DNA of 64,000 nt from Brevundimonas sp. (GTDB lineage: Bacteria; Pseudomonadota; Alphaproteobacteria; Caulobacterales; Caulobacteraceae), in NCBI GenBank assembly GCA_016742215.1, contig JACVCC010000001.1:248001-312000 (forward strand), read 5' to 3'. Under the pieces are notes generated by a model. That model was given only the letters and a program-made list of their open reading frames with translations, did no database searches and was not told the origin of the DNA. The translations under genes and the position numbers were made by a program. Shown here piece by piece: positions 479 through 4,711 of the stretch. Within the stretch, counting starts at the first letter, position 1. Each line of letters opens with the position of its first letter.

Positions 479-555
479 GGCCCCGTAGCTCAGCTGCATA
501 GAGCAAGGCTTTCCTAAAGCCGAGGTCGGAGGTTGGAGTCCTCCCGGGGTCGCCA
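479..555 (+). tRNA. tRNA-Arg(CCU), with divergent D and T loops
   Basis: The cloverleaf folds by hand. The acceptor stem (479-485 with 545-551) pairs fully, allowing one G-U. The D stem is GCTC/GAGC and the T stem is GGAGG/CCTCC. The anticodon CCU lies at 513-515 and CCA is encoded at 553-555. Oddities: the T loop reads TTGGAGT, so conserved C56 is G; the D loop reads AGCTGCATA, so conserved G19 is C; the top anticodon-stem pair 27-43 is A-G. The C19/G56 swap keeps the tertiary pair possible, which argues for a functional gene, but a decaying copy is not excluded. Confidence 0.85.
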
Positions 556-660
556 CCTACTCACAAGCGAACCGCAGACTGCCGTCAAAGGTAGCGCTTG
601 ATTTACCGGTGCAGCCATATCATCCCCGTCGTGGGGGGCTCGCATCACCGGAGGTGAGGT

Positions 661-1065
661 ATGGCCCGGGTTCTGATCGCCGACGATGATCCGCTACTCC
701 GTGCGCTTCTGGAGCACAAGCTCGCGGCTGACGGTCATATCGTCATCTCTGCCGAGGATGGTGGAGAGGTGCTGGAACTGGTCAGCGAGCACAGGCCTGA
801 CCTGATCGTCATGGATGCGATGATGCCGGTCATGGATGGCTTCGAGGTCCTGCGCCGACTCAAGGTCGGCGTCGAATATTCGGACATACCGGTCATCATG
901 CTTACCGCCTTGCGCCGCGAGGCCGACATTGTGGGAGCGCTGCAGCTTGGCGCTGCCGACTACCTGGTGAAGCCGTTTATTCCGGACGAACTGCTGCAGC
1001 GCGTTCGTCGGCTGGCAGACTCCCCGAAAGTGCAAACCGATGATCGTGCAAGACGTCCCGGCTGA
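661..1065 (+). CDS. Single-domain response regulator (receiver only)
   Basis: A CheY-like receiver of 134 residues with no output domain. The acidic pocket is at D8-D10, the phospho-acceptor is D52 (in VMDAMMP), the conserved Thr is T82 and the conserved Lys is K104 (LVKPF). The start is supported by a strong site, GGAGGTGAGG, just before the ATG. It is the first gene of a tight operon: its last 26 bases overlap the next gene. No kinase is adjacent. By position it probably controls the polysaccharide machinery encoded by the next three genes, perhaps by protein contact rather than DNA binding. That role is inferred. Confidence 0.85.
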   Translation: MARVLIADDDPLLRALLEHKLAADGHIVISAEDGGEVLELVSEHRPDLIVMDAMMPVMDGFEVLRRLKVGVEYSDIPVIMLTALRREADIVGALQLGAADYLVKPFIPDELLQRVRRLADSPKVQTDDRARRPG

Positions 1066-2101
1066 GGTCCGGGAGGACCCATCGGCGCTTTACGCGGCGG
1101 CCCTGTCGGATCGTCGGGCGGGGCGCGCCGCTGCGGCGGAGGCACGGCTGCGTCGTGTCCTGCAAATCCGACCCGACGACGTCGATGCACGACTGTTACT
1201 CGGGCTCTCGCTGATCGATCTGGAGCGGCTCGACGAGGCCGAGGACGAACTCCTGCGAGTGGTGGAGGCGGCGCCGAACTACGTCGATGCGCAGATCGGC
1301 TTGGCGCGTATCTCGCAGCGCAGGGGAGATCGGCACGGGTTCGCGATGCGTGCGGCAGAGGCCGTGCGATTGGCCCCGGAGCGCGCCGACGTGCGTGACC
1401 TTGTCCAGAGCAAGCGCGACGTCCCGCGCTGGCGCCTTGACGTCGATGTTGAGCGCAGCCGCCTCGGCGCTGGACTGTCCGACTGGAACGAGACGCGCCT
1501 GTCCGCGACCCATCTTGCAAACGCCCCCTGGAGCTTCGCTGCCTCGGTCGAACGCACAGATCGGTTCGACCGGGTCGATATCTTCACAGAGCTGAGGATC
1601 GCGCGCAGCTTCGCAGGCGGGGAAGGCTGGATCGCGGTCGGCGGCGCGGCGGAGGCGGACCATCGTGCTGAACTCTCGCTGCGGGCGGGGGGCGTATGGA
1701 CCGTAGCTCCGGCGATCACAGCCACCCTTGAGGGCTCGATCGCCCGCTTCCCTGCGGGCGAGGTGAAATCGTTGCAGCCCGGCCTTGGCGTTGACCTCTT
1801 CGGTGGCCGCGCCAGTGTCTCCGGACGGTGGATCAATCTCTGGGACGAAAGAGGAGACCGGGTCGACGGGTATGCCGTCTCGGCGCGCTGGGCCGTGAGC
1901 GACCGGTTCCGTCTGCGTCTGGATCACGCCGATGCGCCGGAGACAAGCGAAGGCGTCGTCGCGGATGTTTCGTCCGTCGCACTGTCGGGCGAATGGGATC
2001 TCACGGAACGCCTGTCTTTGCGAGCCGGCCTGGTCGACGAGCAGAGGACTTTCTACGACCGTCAGGCCGTGTCGGTTGGTGTGGGCTGGCGGTTCTGGTG
2101 A
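1040..2101 (+). CDS. TPR protein with C-terminal YaiO-like outer-membrane beta-barrel
   Basis: 353 residues. About residues 15-120 are TPR-like helical repeats (YAAALSDRRAGR, LLLGLSLIDLERLDEAEDEL). From about 130 to the end there are alternating short strands such as LSLRAGGVWTVAPAITATLEG, ending GVGWRFW, a typical beta-barrel C-terminal aromatic signature. TPR followed by a barrel recalls PgaA-type exopolysaccharide export pores, and the barrel resembles YaiO, which in E. coli is encoded near a GT2 enzyme. Odd: no signal peptide is visible, and a TGA at 968-970 closes the upstream frame. The ATG at 1040 overlaps the receiver gene by 26 bases. The export role is inference from architecture and neighbours. 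Confidence 0.7.
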   Translation: MIVQDVPAEVREDPSALYAAALSDRRAGRAAAAEARLRRVLQIRPDDVDARLLLGLSLIDLERLDEAEDELLRVVEAAPNYVDAQIGLARISQRRGDRHGFAMRAAEAVRLAPERADVRDLVQSKRDVPRWRLDVDVERSRLGAGLSDWNETRLSATHLANAPWSFAASVERTDRFDRVDIFTELRIARSFAGGEGWIAVGGAAEADHRAELSLRAGGVWTVAPAITATLEGSIARFPAGEVKSLQPGLGVDLFGGRASVSGRWINLWDERGDRVDGYAVSARWAVSDRFRLRLDHADAPETSEGVVADVSSVALSGEWDLTERLSLRAGLVDEQRTFYDRQAVSVGVGWRFW

Positions 2102-3150
2102 GTCTGCTCGGCCTTCTCTGGTGGGCCTCTCTCGCAATGGGGGCCGCCTCACTGCTCTGGATGACGTGGCTGATCGCCGCGCGGATGGTCCGTGCGAGAG
2201 CAGACCGAAGGCTGGCCAAGGATCAGGCGTTCGTACGGCGCTGCTTTCTCGAGATCATGGAAGGGCGCCGCGAGGCTGCACGGCTGTTGCGCGCTCCTGC
2301 ACGGCGCGCGAGACTGATTGCGGAAGCAATACTGGACATTGCGGGCCTCGTTCGCGGCCAGGAGCGCGATCGGCTGATAGCGGCGCTTTCGGACCTCGGT
2401 GTCGAAAGCCGACTGCAACGTCGTCTCACACGCGGGAGCAGATCGGGTCGGGTCGCTGCGGCCGAGGCGCTGGCCATCTTCGGCGCTCCGCAAGGCGCTG
2501 TCATCCTCAAGCAGGCGATGGCCGCATCCCGTGATCCCGACTTCAGGGTCGCGGCGCTCAACGCCCTGCTGTCGTTCGACGAGGCTCCGACGTTGCGGGA
2601 GCTTCTCTCCGAGGTGGCGGCCGGCGGGCTGCAGCAATCCCTGCTGTACGAGTCCGTTATCAGGACAATTGTCGCCAGAGATCCGGCAGGCGCGATCGAA
2701 TTGTTCGGTGACCCGCAGACTCCCCTCGTCAGCCGGACACTGATCGCGGAGGCCCTCGGGCGCGCCGGCGACTATCGCGCTGTACCTGTCCTGATGCACG
2801 CGGTAGTTGACGCTGATCTGGAACTGAGGATCGCCTGCATTCGCGCCCTGGGCCTACTGGCCCATCCCGTTGGCGCTCCGGCAATCGCAACCGCGCTGGG
2901 CGACGAGGCTTGGGAGGTGCGCGCGGCGGCCGCCGAAGCGGCCGGGCGTATAGGTCTGATTGAACTGGCTCCGAGCCTGGTCGAGGCGCTCGCCGACGAT
3001 GCCTGGTGGGTGCGCTTTCGTGCCGGCGAGGCGCTGGCTGCGTGCGGCGAGAAAGGGATGGCGGTTCTCCGCCTCGCAGCCGGCGTGAACCAGGACGTGG
3101 TTCGCCGAGCGGCCTCTCTCGTCCTCGCAGAGCGGGGCGTCGCACCATGA
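2098..3150 (+). CDS. Membrane-anchored HEAT-repeat protein
   Basis: 350 residues from a GTG start that overlaps the previous stop by 4 bases (GTGA), so it is translationally coupled. A longer frame upstream lies entirely inside the previous gene and was rejected. Residues 3-30 form one or two hydrophobic helices (LLGLLWWASLAMGAASLLWM). The rest is helical HEAT/PBS-type repeats, clear from about residue 215 to the end (ALNALLSF, CIRALGLL, VRAAAAEAAGRIG, VRFRAGEALAACG). No catalytic motif is seen. HEAT repeats are protein-binding scaffolds, so it may link the receiver, the glycosyltransferase and the exporter at the inner membrane. Confidence 0.7.
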   Translation: MSLLGLLWWASLAMGAASLLWMTWLIAARMVRARADRRLAKDQAFVRRCFLEIMEGRREAARLLRAPARRARLIAEAILDIAGLVRGQERDRLIAALSDLGVESRLQRRLTRGSRSGRVAAAEALAIFGAPQGAVILKQAMAASRDPDFRVAALNALLSFDEAPTLRELLSEVAAGGLQQSLLYESVIRTIVARDPAGAIELFGDPQTPLVSRTLIAEALGRAGDYRAVPVLMHAVVDADLELRIACIRALGLLAHPVGAPAIATALGDEAWEVRAAAAEAAGRIGLIELAPSLVEALADDAWWVRFRAGEALAACGEKGMAVLRLAAGVNQDVVRRAASLVLAERGVAP

Positions 3151-4568
3151 CGGACCTGCTGGCCGCCCTTGTCGGATATGCCGAAGCCATCGCGTGGTTT
3201 GTGATCGGCGCAGGCCTCCTCCAGAACCTTCTCTATCTCGTCCAGCTGTGTCTGGCCGGCGTTGCCCTGGCCAGCCGCCCGCCTATCCCGCAGTCGACGG
3301 TGTTATGGCGGCGCTACGCCGACGCCTCTCCGCCCATCGCGCTCCTAGCGCCAGCGTACAACGAGGCCCTGACGATCGTTCAGAGCGTACGGTCGCTGTT
3401 ATCCCTTCGCTATCCGACGTTCGAGGTCATCGTCGTCAACGATGGCTCCAGTGACGCCACCCTCGATGCCCTGGTAAAGGCCTATCGGCTGAAACCCATC
3501 GAACGCAATTTCGACCTCCGTCTCACGCACGAGACGATCCGCGGGATTTACGGGGCCGAACATCAGCCGAAGCTGATCGTCGTCGACAAGGTCAATGGTG
3601 GGAAAGCCGATGCGCTGAACGCGGGCATCAATGTTTCGCGCGCGCCGATCTTCTGTTCGATGGACGCCGACTCACTCCTGGAGCCGGACGCCCTGTTGCG
3701 GGCGGTGCAGCCGTTCGTCGAGGACCCTGAGCGGACGGTCGCCGTCGGAGGCACTGTCCGGATCGCCAATGGCTGTGTGATCCGCGATGGGCAGGTGATC
3801 TCGGTGGGACTGCCGCGTAGCTTCCTCGCCCTGCTTCAAACGGTCGAGTACCTGAGAGCCTTCCTCATGGCGCGCCTCGCCTGGAGCCGCATCAACACCC
3901 TGACGATCATCTCCGGCGCTTTCGGCCTCTTCCGGCGAGCCCGTGTCATTGAGGCGGGAGGCTATACACGCGGTACTGTCGGCGAAGACATGGAGCTGGT
4001 CGTCAAACTGCACCGGCTCATGCGGGACCGACGTCTGCCGTACCGGATCGGCTTCGTGCCCGAACCTGTGTGCTGGACCGAGGCGCCGGAGAGTCTGCGC
4101 GTTCTCGGTCGTCAAAGATCCCGTTGGCATCGAGGCGCACTCGAAACGTTCGAGCGGCATTGGGACGTCATGTTCAAACCGCGATACGGCAGGCTGGGCT
4201 CGCTCGGGTTCACCTACATCTTGCTGGTCGACATCCTCGGACCGGTGATCGAGTTGCTGGGGTATCTTCTTATTCCCGCTTTCTGGGGATTGGGTCTGTT
4301 GTCGGTCGAGTATCTTCTCGCCTTCCTCGCCGTCAGCTTCACCTTTGGCGTCGTTATCTCCGTCGGGGCCTTGGCGCTGGAAGAAACGGAGCTACGTCGG
4401 TTCCCACGGGCCCGTCACCTGATGGTGCTCACCGCCATCGCGATCATCGAGAACTTCGGCTACCGGCAGCTCAACAATCTCTGGAGGCTGCGGGGGCTCT
4501 GGCAACGGATGCGGCGCAGCCAGTCATGGGGAACGATGACGCGCAAAGGCTTCGGGTCCGGGGTCTGA
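3147..4568 (+). CDS. Processive family 2 glycosyltransferase (membrane)
   Basis: 473 residues, starting at an ATG that overlaps the HEAT gene stop by 4 bases. An N-terminal membrane segment (about 12-42) is followed by a GT-A domain with the motifs of processive beta-glycosyltransferases: ND near residue 99, DAD at 173-175, ED at 280-281 and QRSRW at 323-327. Several membrane helices follow from about 350 to 445. This is the layout of PgaC, NodC and cellulose synthase-like enzymes that polymerise a sugar nucleotide and push the chain through the inner membrane. The substrate cannot be read from the sequence. It is the catalytic core of the four-gene operon. Confidence 0.85.
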   Translation: MTDLLAALVGYAEAIAWFVIGAGLLQNLLYLVQLCLAGVALASRPPIPQSTVLWRRYADASPPIALLAPAYNEALTIVQSVRSLLSLRYPTFEVIVVNDGSSDATLDALVKAYRLKPIERNFDLRLTHETIRGIYGAEHQPKLIVVDKVNGGKADALNAGINVSRAPIFCSMDADSLLEPDALLRAVQPFVEDPERTVAVGGTVRIANGCVIRDGQVISVGLPRSFLALLQTVEYLRAFLMARLAWSRINTLTIISGAFGLFRRARVIEAGGYTRGTVGEDMELVVKLHRLMRDRRLPYRIGFVPEPVCWTEAPESLRVLGRQRSRWHRGALETFERHWDVMFKPRYGRLGSLGFTYILLVDILGPVIELLGYLLIPAFWGLGLLSVEYLLAFLAVSFTFGVVISVGALALEETELRRFPRARHLMVLTAIAIIENFGYRQLNNLWRLRGLWQRMRRSQSWGTMTRKGFGSGV

Positions 4569-4711
4569 AACCTCCGAAGACGCGGCCTGCATCGCTTCTG
4601 CATGGTCCCTGATCCAAGGCTCCTTGAAGCACCCAGCGTGAATGGACGTGCGCGGGCGACAACGACCGGTGACCTCGCCACCCCGTTGACCAACGCCCCC
4701 GGAGTCTGAAC

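Follow-up and report, generated by a model that had tools for sequence, protein, structure and literature searches.

The window analysed here, 64,000 nucleotides of Brevundimonas sp. (contig JACVCC010000001.1, positions 248,001 to 312,000), carries an operon of four genes for a stand-alone receiver, a TPR protein ending in a YaiO-type barrel, a HEAT-repeat protein and a membrane glycosyltransferase of family 2 (GT2), and the conserved core of this gene set is the HEAT-GT2 pair, often accompanied by the receiver. In well-studied synthase-dependent polysaccharide systems the switch is mostly cyclic di-GMP (c-di-GMP); the synthase here is paired with a HEAT solenoid and often with a stand-alone receiver. 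The reading favoured below, to which about even chances are given, is that of a synthase-dependent polysaccharide system in which the GT2 is switched by the receiver via the HEAT solenoid and not by c-di-GMP. The gene set allows asking whether a phosphorelay directly controls polymer synthesis, in Gram-negative, Gram-positive and archaeal hosts alike. A preliminary description of the operon, made from the window's letters, had proposed an undescribed polysaccharide export system. This proposal withstood both the search for its gene order in other genomes and the modelling of its barrel, and among open-licence PubMed Central (PMC) papers, a body that leaves absence in print unproved, none was found that links YaiO or an operon with a GT2 synthase to HEAT repeats. 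The emphasis on export is shifted, the core being HEAT-GT2, which is found in Bacillota and haloarchaea with no barrel.

Conservation of the gene order

Relatives were collected with the GT2 alone as query and one genome per species, which gave 374 relatives of which the best 80 were kept as loci (L numbers), and neighbouring genes were labelled with profiles grown from the four window proteins. The HEAT gene was found directly upstream of the GT2 gene in 77 of the 80 loci and in none of 20 other GT2 loci used as controls, all of which belong to the same family and two of which were shortened by contig ends; a chance neighbourhood is ruled out by this difference. Of the three loci without an upstream HEAT gene, L067 and L088 have the GT2 at a contig end and L073 has it as a degraded copy. 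HEAT is preceded by a YaiO protein in 50/80 loci, and a short receiver lies upstream in 53/80 and downstream in 3/80. The gene order is conserved far beyond close relatives, and a lack of such conservation, which the preliminary description had named as a ground for refutation, is not borne out.

The bacterial hosts of the HEAT-GT2 pair fall into seven named phyla, four represented by single loci and several by metagenome bins, and haloarchaea have the pair as well; Bacillota, Fidelibacterota, Deinococcus and Bacteroides are among its hosts. Fourteen plasmid records hold a related GT2, and in all 11 that were examined the HEAT gene is directly upstream by annotation or profile, the match in the Emticicia plasmid being weak (31 bits). 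These plasmid loci include Mesorhizobium, Deinococcus, Planococcus, Bacteroides and three haloarchaea. The distribution is patchy, with matches at E 1e-30 in 28 of 199 genomes of the family (own genome included; five weak, 31-34% identity) and in 4 of 190 at class level (own genome included).

Some individual loci deserve mention. On the Planococcus plasmid (L141:819-8254) HEAT-GT2 stands in a row with genes for a CotH kinase, a polyphosphate polymerase domain and DUF4956, and on the Erythrobacter aureus plasmid (L139:1-15278) the operon is enclosed by a cluster of flagellar genes and has a PilZ gene close by. The degraded copy in Brevundimonas lutea (L073:8001-9122) is matched by the GT2 only from residue 97, and neither HEAT, YaiO nor receiver was found beside it.

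The synthase and the HEAT protein

The GT2 (P0004) carries the full motif set that had been claimed for it (NDGS, DADS, GEDMEL and QRSRW), and the catalytic positions are invariant across 36 aligned relatives. Its model, with a predicted local distance difference test score (pLDDT) of 90.7, was matched to the Chlorella virus hyaluronan synthase at Z 28.5 over 390 aligned residues and to BcsA at Z 25.3 over 376, and the D, DxD, ED and QxxRW motifs together with the synthase fold agree with those of the membrane-integrated processive GT2 synthases. PgaC_IcaA was the best NCBIfam model, though far under its cut-off (134.2 vs 422.3 bits), and PgaC the nearest in sequence among the Escherichia coli enzymes compared (28% identity over 299 columns). 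The GT2 tree was made by a quick method, and the branches leading to the E. coli references are very long; as several long branches meet in it, no claim is made on the place of these references. In Halosolutus, a single case, genes for a sugar-phosphate nucleotidyltransferase and glmS come next after the operon.

The HEAT protein, described before as membrane-anchored, has a HEAT_2 match of 93.5 bits and an N-terminal hydrophobic segment. By the hydropathy rule an N-terminal transmembrane segment is present in 73 of the 82 HEAT proteins of the family, and lysine and arginine are commoner after this segment than before it in 76 of the 82; the HEAT part is probably cytoplasmic. For the proteins scanned from Clostridium, Fidelibacterota, Salinirubellus and Bacteroides, HEAT_2 was confirmed by Pfam.

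In Clostridia a membrane-anchored protein of about 700 amino acids is encoded upstream of HEAT (L114:4263-6416, L110:3151-5298, L117:3817-5937, L130:4490-6676), and no Pfam family was matched by the one of Clostridium L114 or its Planococcus counterpart.

The barrel protein and the outer membrane

The second protein (P0002) matches PF14559 with its TPR part and passes the TIGR04390 model of the YaiO barrel domain with 65.6 bits at a curated cut-off of 32. No match was obtained to the Pfam YaiO family PF19413 at E 0.1, and neither BLASTP nor a family profile linked P0002 to the E. coli YaiO protein; its assignment to YaiO is based on TIGR04390. AlphaFold2 with 36 sequences gave seven TPR helices and 14 strands at a mean pLDDT of 94.1, a confident model in which the protein ends as a barrel, as had been proposed; the predicted barrel is closed, which fits a YaiO-type protein. 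Foldseek with the barrel model ranked OmpG first, BcsC eighth and PelBC ninth, and VIA-align placed TodX, FadL-type channels and OmpG on top (Z 22 to 19), with BcsC and PelBC not among the 50 entries listed.

Counted with a barrel-only profile, a YaiO barrel is near the GT2 in 52/56 pseudomonadotal loci, the four misses being the degraded copy or loci at contig ends, and in the one locus each of Nitrospirota and Verrucomicrobiota. It was found in none of 14 Bacillota loci and neither of two haloarchaeal loci. Cells without an outer membrane have retained HEAT-GT2, some with the receiver and none with the barrel. No stronger argument was obtained for a barrel that serves the outer membrane and for the synthase pair as the core. 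With HEAT-GT2 occurring without a barrel in Bacillota and haloarchaea, the system has the look of a regulated synthase that has gained an exit barrel.

The receiver and its possible input

The first protein matches PF00072 with 105.9 bits and has no output domain, in agreement with its description as a lone receiver. The window receiver has D8-D10, D52, T82 and K104, and among the operon receivers the acceptor aspartate is kept in 58/60 and the lysine in 59/60. A nearby receiver was counted in 4/14 Bacillota loci, and the haloarchaea have receiver, HEAT and GT2 without a barrel. Genes for a kinase, Hpt or extra receiver adjoin the operon in Mesorhizobium and some other relatives. A receiver on the opposite strand was found in 15/80 loci, in 11 of these followed by a large receiver-bearing open reading frame (ORF); the two of these 11 that were scanned are both CHASE3-PAS hybrid kinases. 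One scanned Fidelibacterota locus encodes a hybrid kinase and an Hpt-GGDEF-receiver protein.

Comparison with known systems

As judged from models and sequence, the operon would combine an inner-membrane GT2 with a TPR-barrel outer-membrane protein and so agree with synthase-dependent exopolysaccharide systems in general. The Pfam matches of the four proteins include no c-di-GMP-binding domain, and no c-di-GMP receptor was recognised in them. The system would work like Nfr, Pga and Bcs but belongs to none of them, each being excluded by curated cut-offs or missing domains.

The NfrA/NfrB proteins of the E. coli NGR glycan system likewise unite an inner-membrane GT2 with a TPR-and-barrel outer-membrane protein. 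NfrB binds c-di-GMP with an MshEN-like domain of its own and the NfrA barrel is described as having 16 strands (PMC8669472), whereas the window barrel has 14 strands and the operon has HEAT plus receiver instead of an MshEN-like domain; no MshEN-like Pfam match was obtained for P0004, and BLASTP to NfrB gave E 0.18, which does not support membership. Pga is similar in its TPR-barrel exporter and in PgaC as the nearest E. coli GT2, but the four include no gene for PgaB or another deacetylase, as had been noted before, and no PgaD-like gene, and with the GT2 score so far below the PgaC cut-off membership was rejected. Bcs shares the synthase fold and a TPR plus barrel exporter, and its BcsC was among the Foldseek matches of the barrel, but the window system is without BcsB and, in the Pfam scan, without PilZ, and the CelA model was reached with 48.7 bits at a cut-off of 699.1. 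The E. coli YaiO/YaiP/YaiS genes resemble the operon in the match to the YaiO domain model TIGR04390 and in a GT2 gene nearby, but no HEAT or receiver is annotated there, and yaiS is a putative deacetylase gene, of which none is present in the operon. The clostridial cellulose system CcsZABHI is comparable as a Gram-positive synthase operon without an outer-membrane part; CcsA has PilZ and is accompanied by a GH5 hydrolase, CcsB and O-acetylation proteins, and no HEAT repeat protein is named for it in the available part of the source (PMC7710045).

Missing signal peptides

The presence of a signal peptide was assessed with a hydropathy rule and by visual inspection. One is present in 34 of 51 scored YaiO proteins and none is recognisable in 17, the count leaving aside rows off the tree (such as L065, L092, L105 and L138) and the ambiguous L063, L081 and L089. 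The signal-less proteins belong to three lineages, Brevundimonas, Caulobacter and Hyphomonas with one Halieaceae bin, and the GT2 tree requires at least three changes. The window protein, which begins with MIVQDVPAEV, is among them. Clear ribosome-binding sites precede the signal-less starts in the Brevundimonas relatives L056, L058, L059 and L061, and no obvious one was seen before this start in the window or in Caulobacter. Sequencing error was ruled out as the cause because the same kind of start recurs across many separate assemblies. A second, signal-bearing YaiO elsewhere was also rejected, as each of 10 genomes searched (G000 being 70% complete) has one TIGR04390 match, the operon's own.

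An aromatic C-terminal residue, the usual barrel end signal, was found in 32 of 36 aligned TPR-barrel proteins, and every signal-less row ends in F or W. The signal-less barrel genes are under purifying selection, with a median ratio of nonsynonymous to synonymous substitution rates (dN/dS) of 0.13 in Caulobacter and 0.31 in Brevundimonas, the values for Brevundimonas, Hyphomonas and sphingomonads being near or past synonymous saturation. The missing signal peptide poses a genuine problem for export in this organism, as it either argues against exit through the barrel or hints at an unusual export route, and is a separate puzzle in outer-membrane protein export.

Proposed mechanism and alternatives

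In the receiver-switched synthase favoured here, the GT2 would polymerise a sugar, possibly an amino sugar, and pass the polymer through a membrane channel formed by the enzyme itself. Beside the GT2, on the cytoplasmic face, the HEAT solenoid would serve as a platform, through which the phosphorylated receiver would switch the synthase, together filling the role that c-di-GMP has for BcsA, PgaCD and NfrB, and in diderm bacteria the TPR-barrel protein would take the polymer across the outer membrane. In its favour are the near-constant HEAT gene upstream of the GT2, also on plasmids, the distribution of the barrel, the conserved phosphorylation residues of the receivers, the barrel-less receiver-HEAT-GT2 sets of haloarchaea, the kinase, Hpt or receiver genes beside some relatives, the matches of the GT2 model to hyaluronan synthase and BcsA, and the nucleotidyltransferase and glmS genes in Halosolutus. 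Several observations weigh against this reading. The complete order receiver-YaiO-HEAT-GT2 is present in just 39/80 loci, no natural fusions of receiver, HEAT or GT2 were found in the ORFs searched, the window yields no kinase partner for the receiver, and the two-component pair downstream is also found in genomes without the operon. The polymer, its gating by the receiver, its exit through the barrel and the contact among receiver, HEAT and GT2 are all steps that we infer. GGDEF-receiver proteins stand in the same cluster in two scanned relatives, so c-di-GMP may also matter there, and the earlier statement that no c-di-GMP protein is present holds for the Pfam matches of the four window proteins but does not extend to these relatives. 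The barrel profile misses Deinococcus (0/1) and Bacteroidota (0/1) and finds a barrel in only 2 of 11 Fidelibacterota loci, all three taken as outer-membrane lineages; the record of Emticicia (Bacteroidota) annotates a YaiO gene downstream despite this miss, and a wider profile detects a TPR-YaiO-like gene downstream in six of the 11 Fidelibacterota loci, with YaiO confirmed by Pfam for L106. Two unplaced loci are without a match to the barrel profile as well. To these come the absence of a recognisable Sec signal peptide from the window barrel protein, and the mannosyltransferase PcManGT as the top match of the GT2 model by Z (32.1, 333 aligned).

The last match counts in favour of a GT2 that would not polymerise but add single sugars to an envelope lipid or protein as a surface decoration. 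The QxxRW motif, the longer matches to hyaluronan, cellulose and chitin synthases, PgaC_IcaA as best if distant NCBIfam model and the TPR-barrel partner, which is typical of polymer export, all argue against such an enzyme, and it is held to be decidedly unlikely. Somewhat less doubtful, though still rather improbable, is a HEAT protein acting as constitutive structural partner of the synthase in the manner of PgaD or BcsB, with the receiver regulating something else or gene expression only. The near-constant HEAT gene beside a less constant receiver, scarce in Bacillota, fits this, but the receivers keep their phosphorylation residues and remain in the operon even in haloarchaea, and that of the window has no output domain. 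For the signal-less lineages, that of the window included, the barrel protein might no longer work in the outer membrane, through a shift of function or decay; a third of the scored proteins and the repeated changes on the tree speak for this, as does the degraded GT2 copy in B. lutea, but the purifying selection (with synonymous changes near saturation in Brevundimonas) and the F or W at the end of all signal-less rows do not, and it is considered unlikely. The receiver-switched synthase could also be taken further, with the receiver-HEAT-GT2 core of bacteria and archaea as an undescribed class of phosphorelay-switched synthases with exchangeable exit parts and, at the same time, barrel export without a classical Sec signal peptide in at least three lineages; this combination is very unlikely to hold in full. 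If true, a barrel reaching the envelope in this way would imply that beta-barrel proteins can be exported by an unknown route.

Gene layout and genomic site

The features are given in Table 1. The ORF coordinates agree with overlaps of 26, 4 and 4 bases between the four genes. The assembly behind the window is 2.0 Mb and 70% complete, and the nearest relative found by GT2 is Brevundimonas fluminis (90% identity).

Table 1. Coordinates of the operon genes, the flanking tRNA gene and the barrel proteins without a recognisable signal peptide.
Feature	Position	Strand	Basis
tRNA-Arg (CCT), flank of the variable site housing the operon	479..555	+	ARAGORN
Stand-alone receiver, 134 amino acids, phosphorylation residues intact	661..1065	+	PF00072
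TPR plus YaiO-type 14-strand barrel protein (P0002), 353 amino acids, no recognisable signal peptide	1040..2101	+	TIGR04390, AlphaFold2
HEAT-repeat protein, 350 amino acids, GTG start, one N-terminal membrane anchor	2098..3150	+	HEAT_2
Membrane GT2 (P0004), 473 amino acids, hyaluronan/cellulose-synthase-like fold, four motifs	3147..4568	+	Pfam, motifs, model
Signal-less YaiO barrel proteins	window 1040-1080; L053-L062, L066, L068, L094, L095, L098-L100		

The operon starts about 105 bases after the tRNA-Arg gene, and looks horizontally acquired at a variable site. A genome of the same genus (G073) is syntenic up to window base 554, the 3′ end of the tRNA-Arg, and again from 4682, and holds a different, membrane-protein-like gene in the gap. 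No integrase was found within the four-gene stretch and no repeat of the 3′ part of the tRNA in the window, and the operon's far end showed no repeats of 9-14 bases. A tRNA-Ser precedes the operon in Brevundimonas sp. Root1279. Adjacency to a tRNA was rejected as a general rule, being present in just 7/107 loci, some of which are one genome counted twice.

The variable site between the tRNA-Arg and a PhoB-like two-component pair spans 479-4682 in the window; L157:8208-9991 and L033:5468-5584 are the further stretches that belong to these comparisons. Ahead of the receiver, window positions 595-650 are shared with L053 (TTGATT ... TATCATC) and appear promoter-like by eye.

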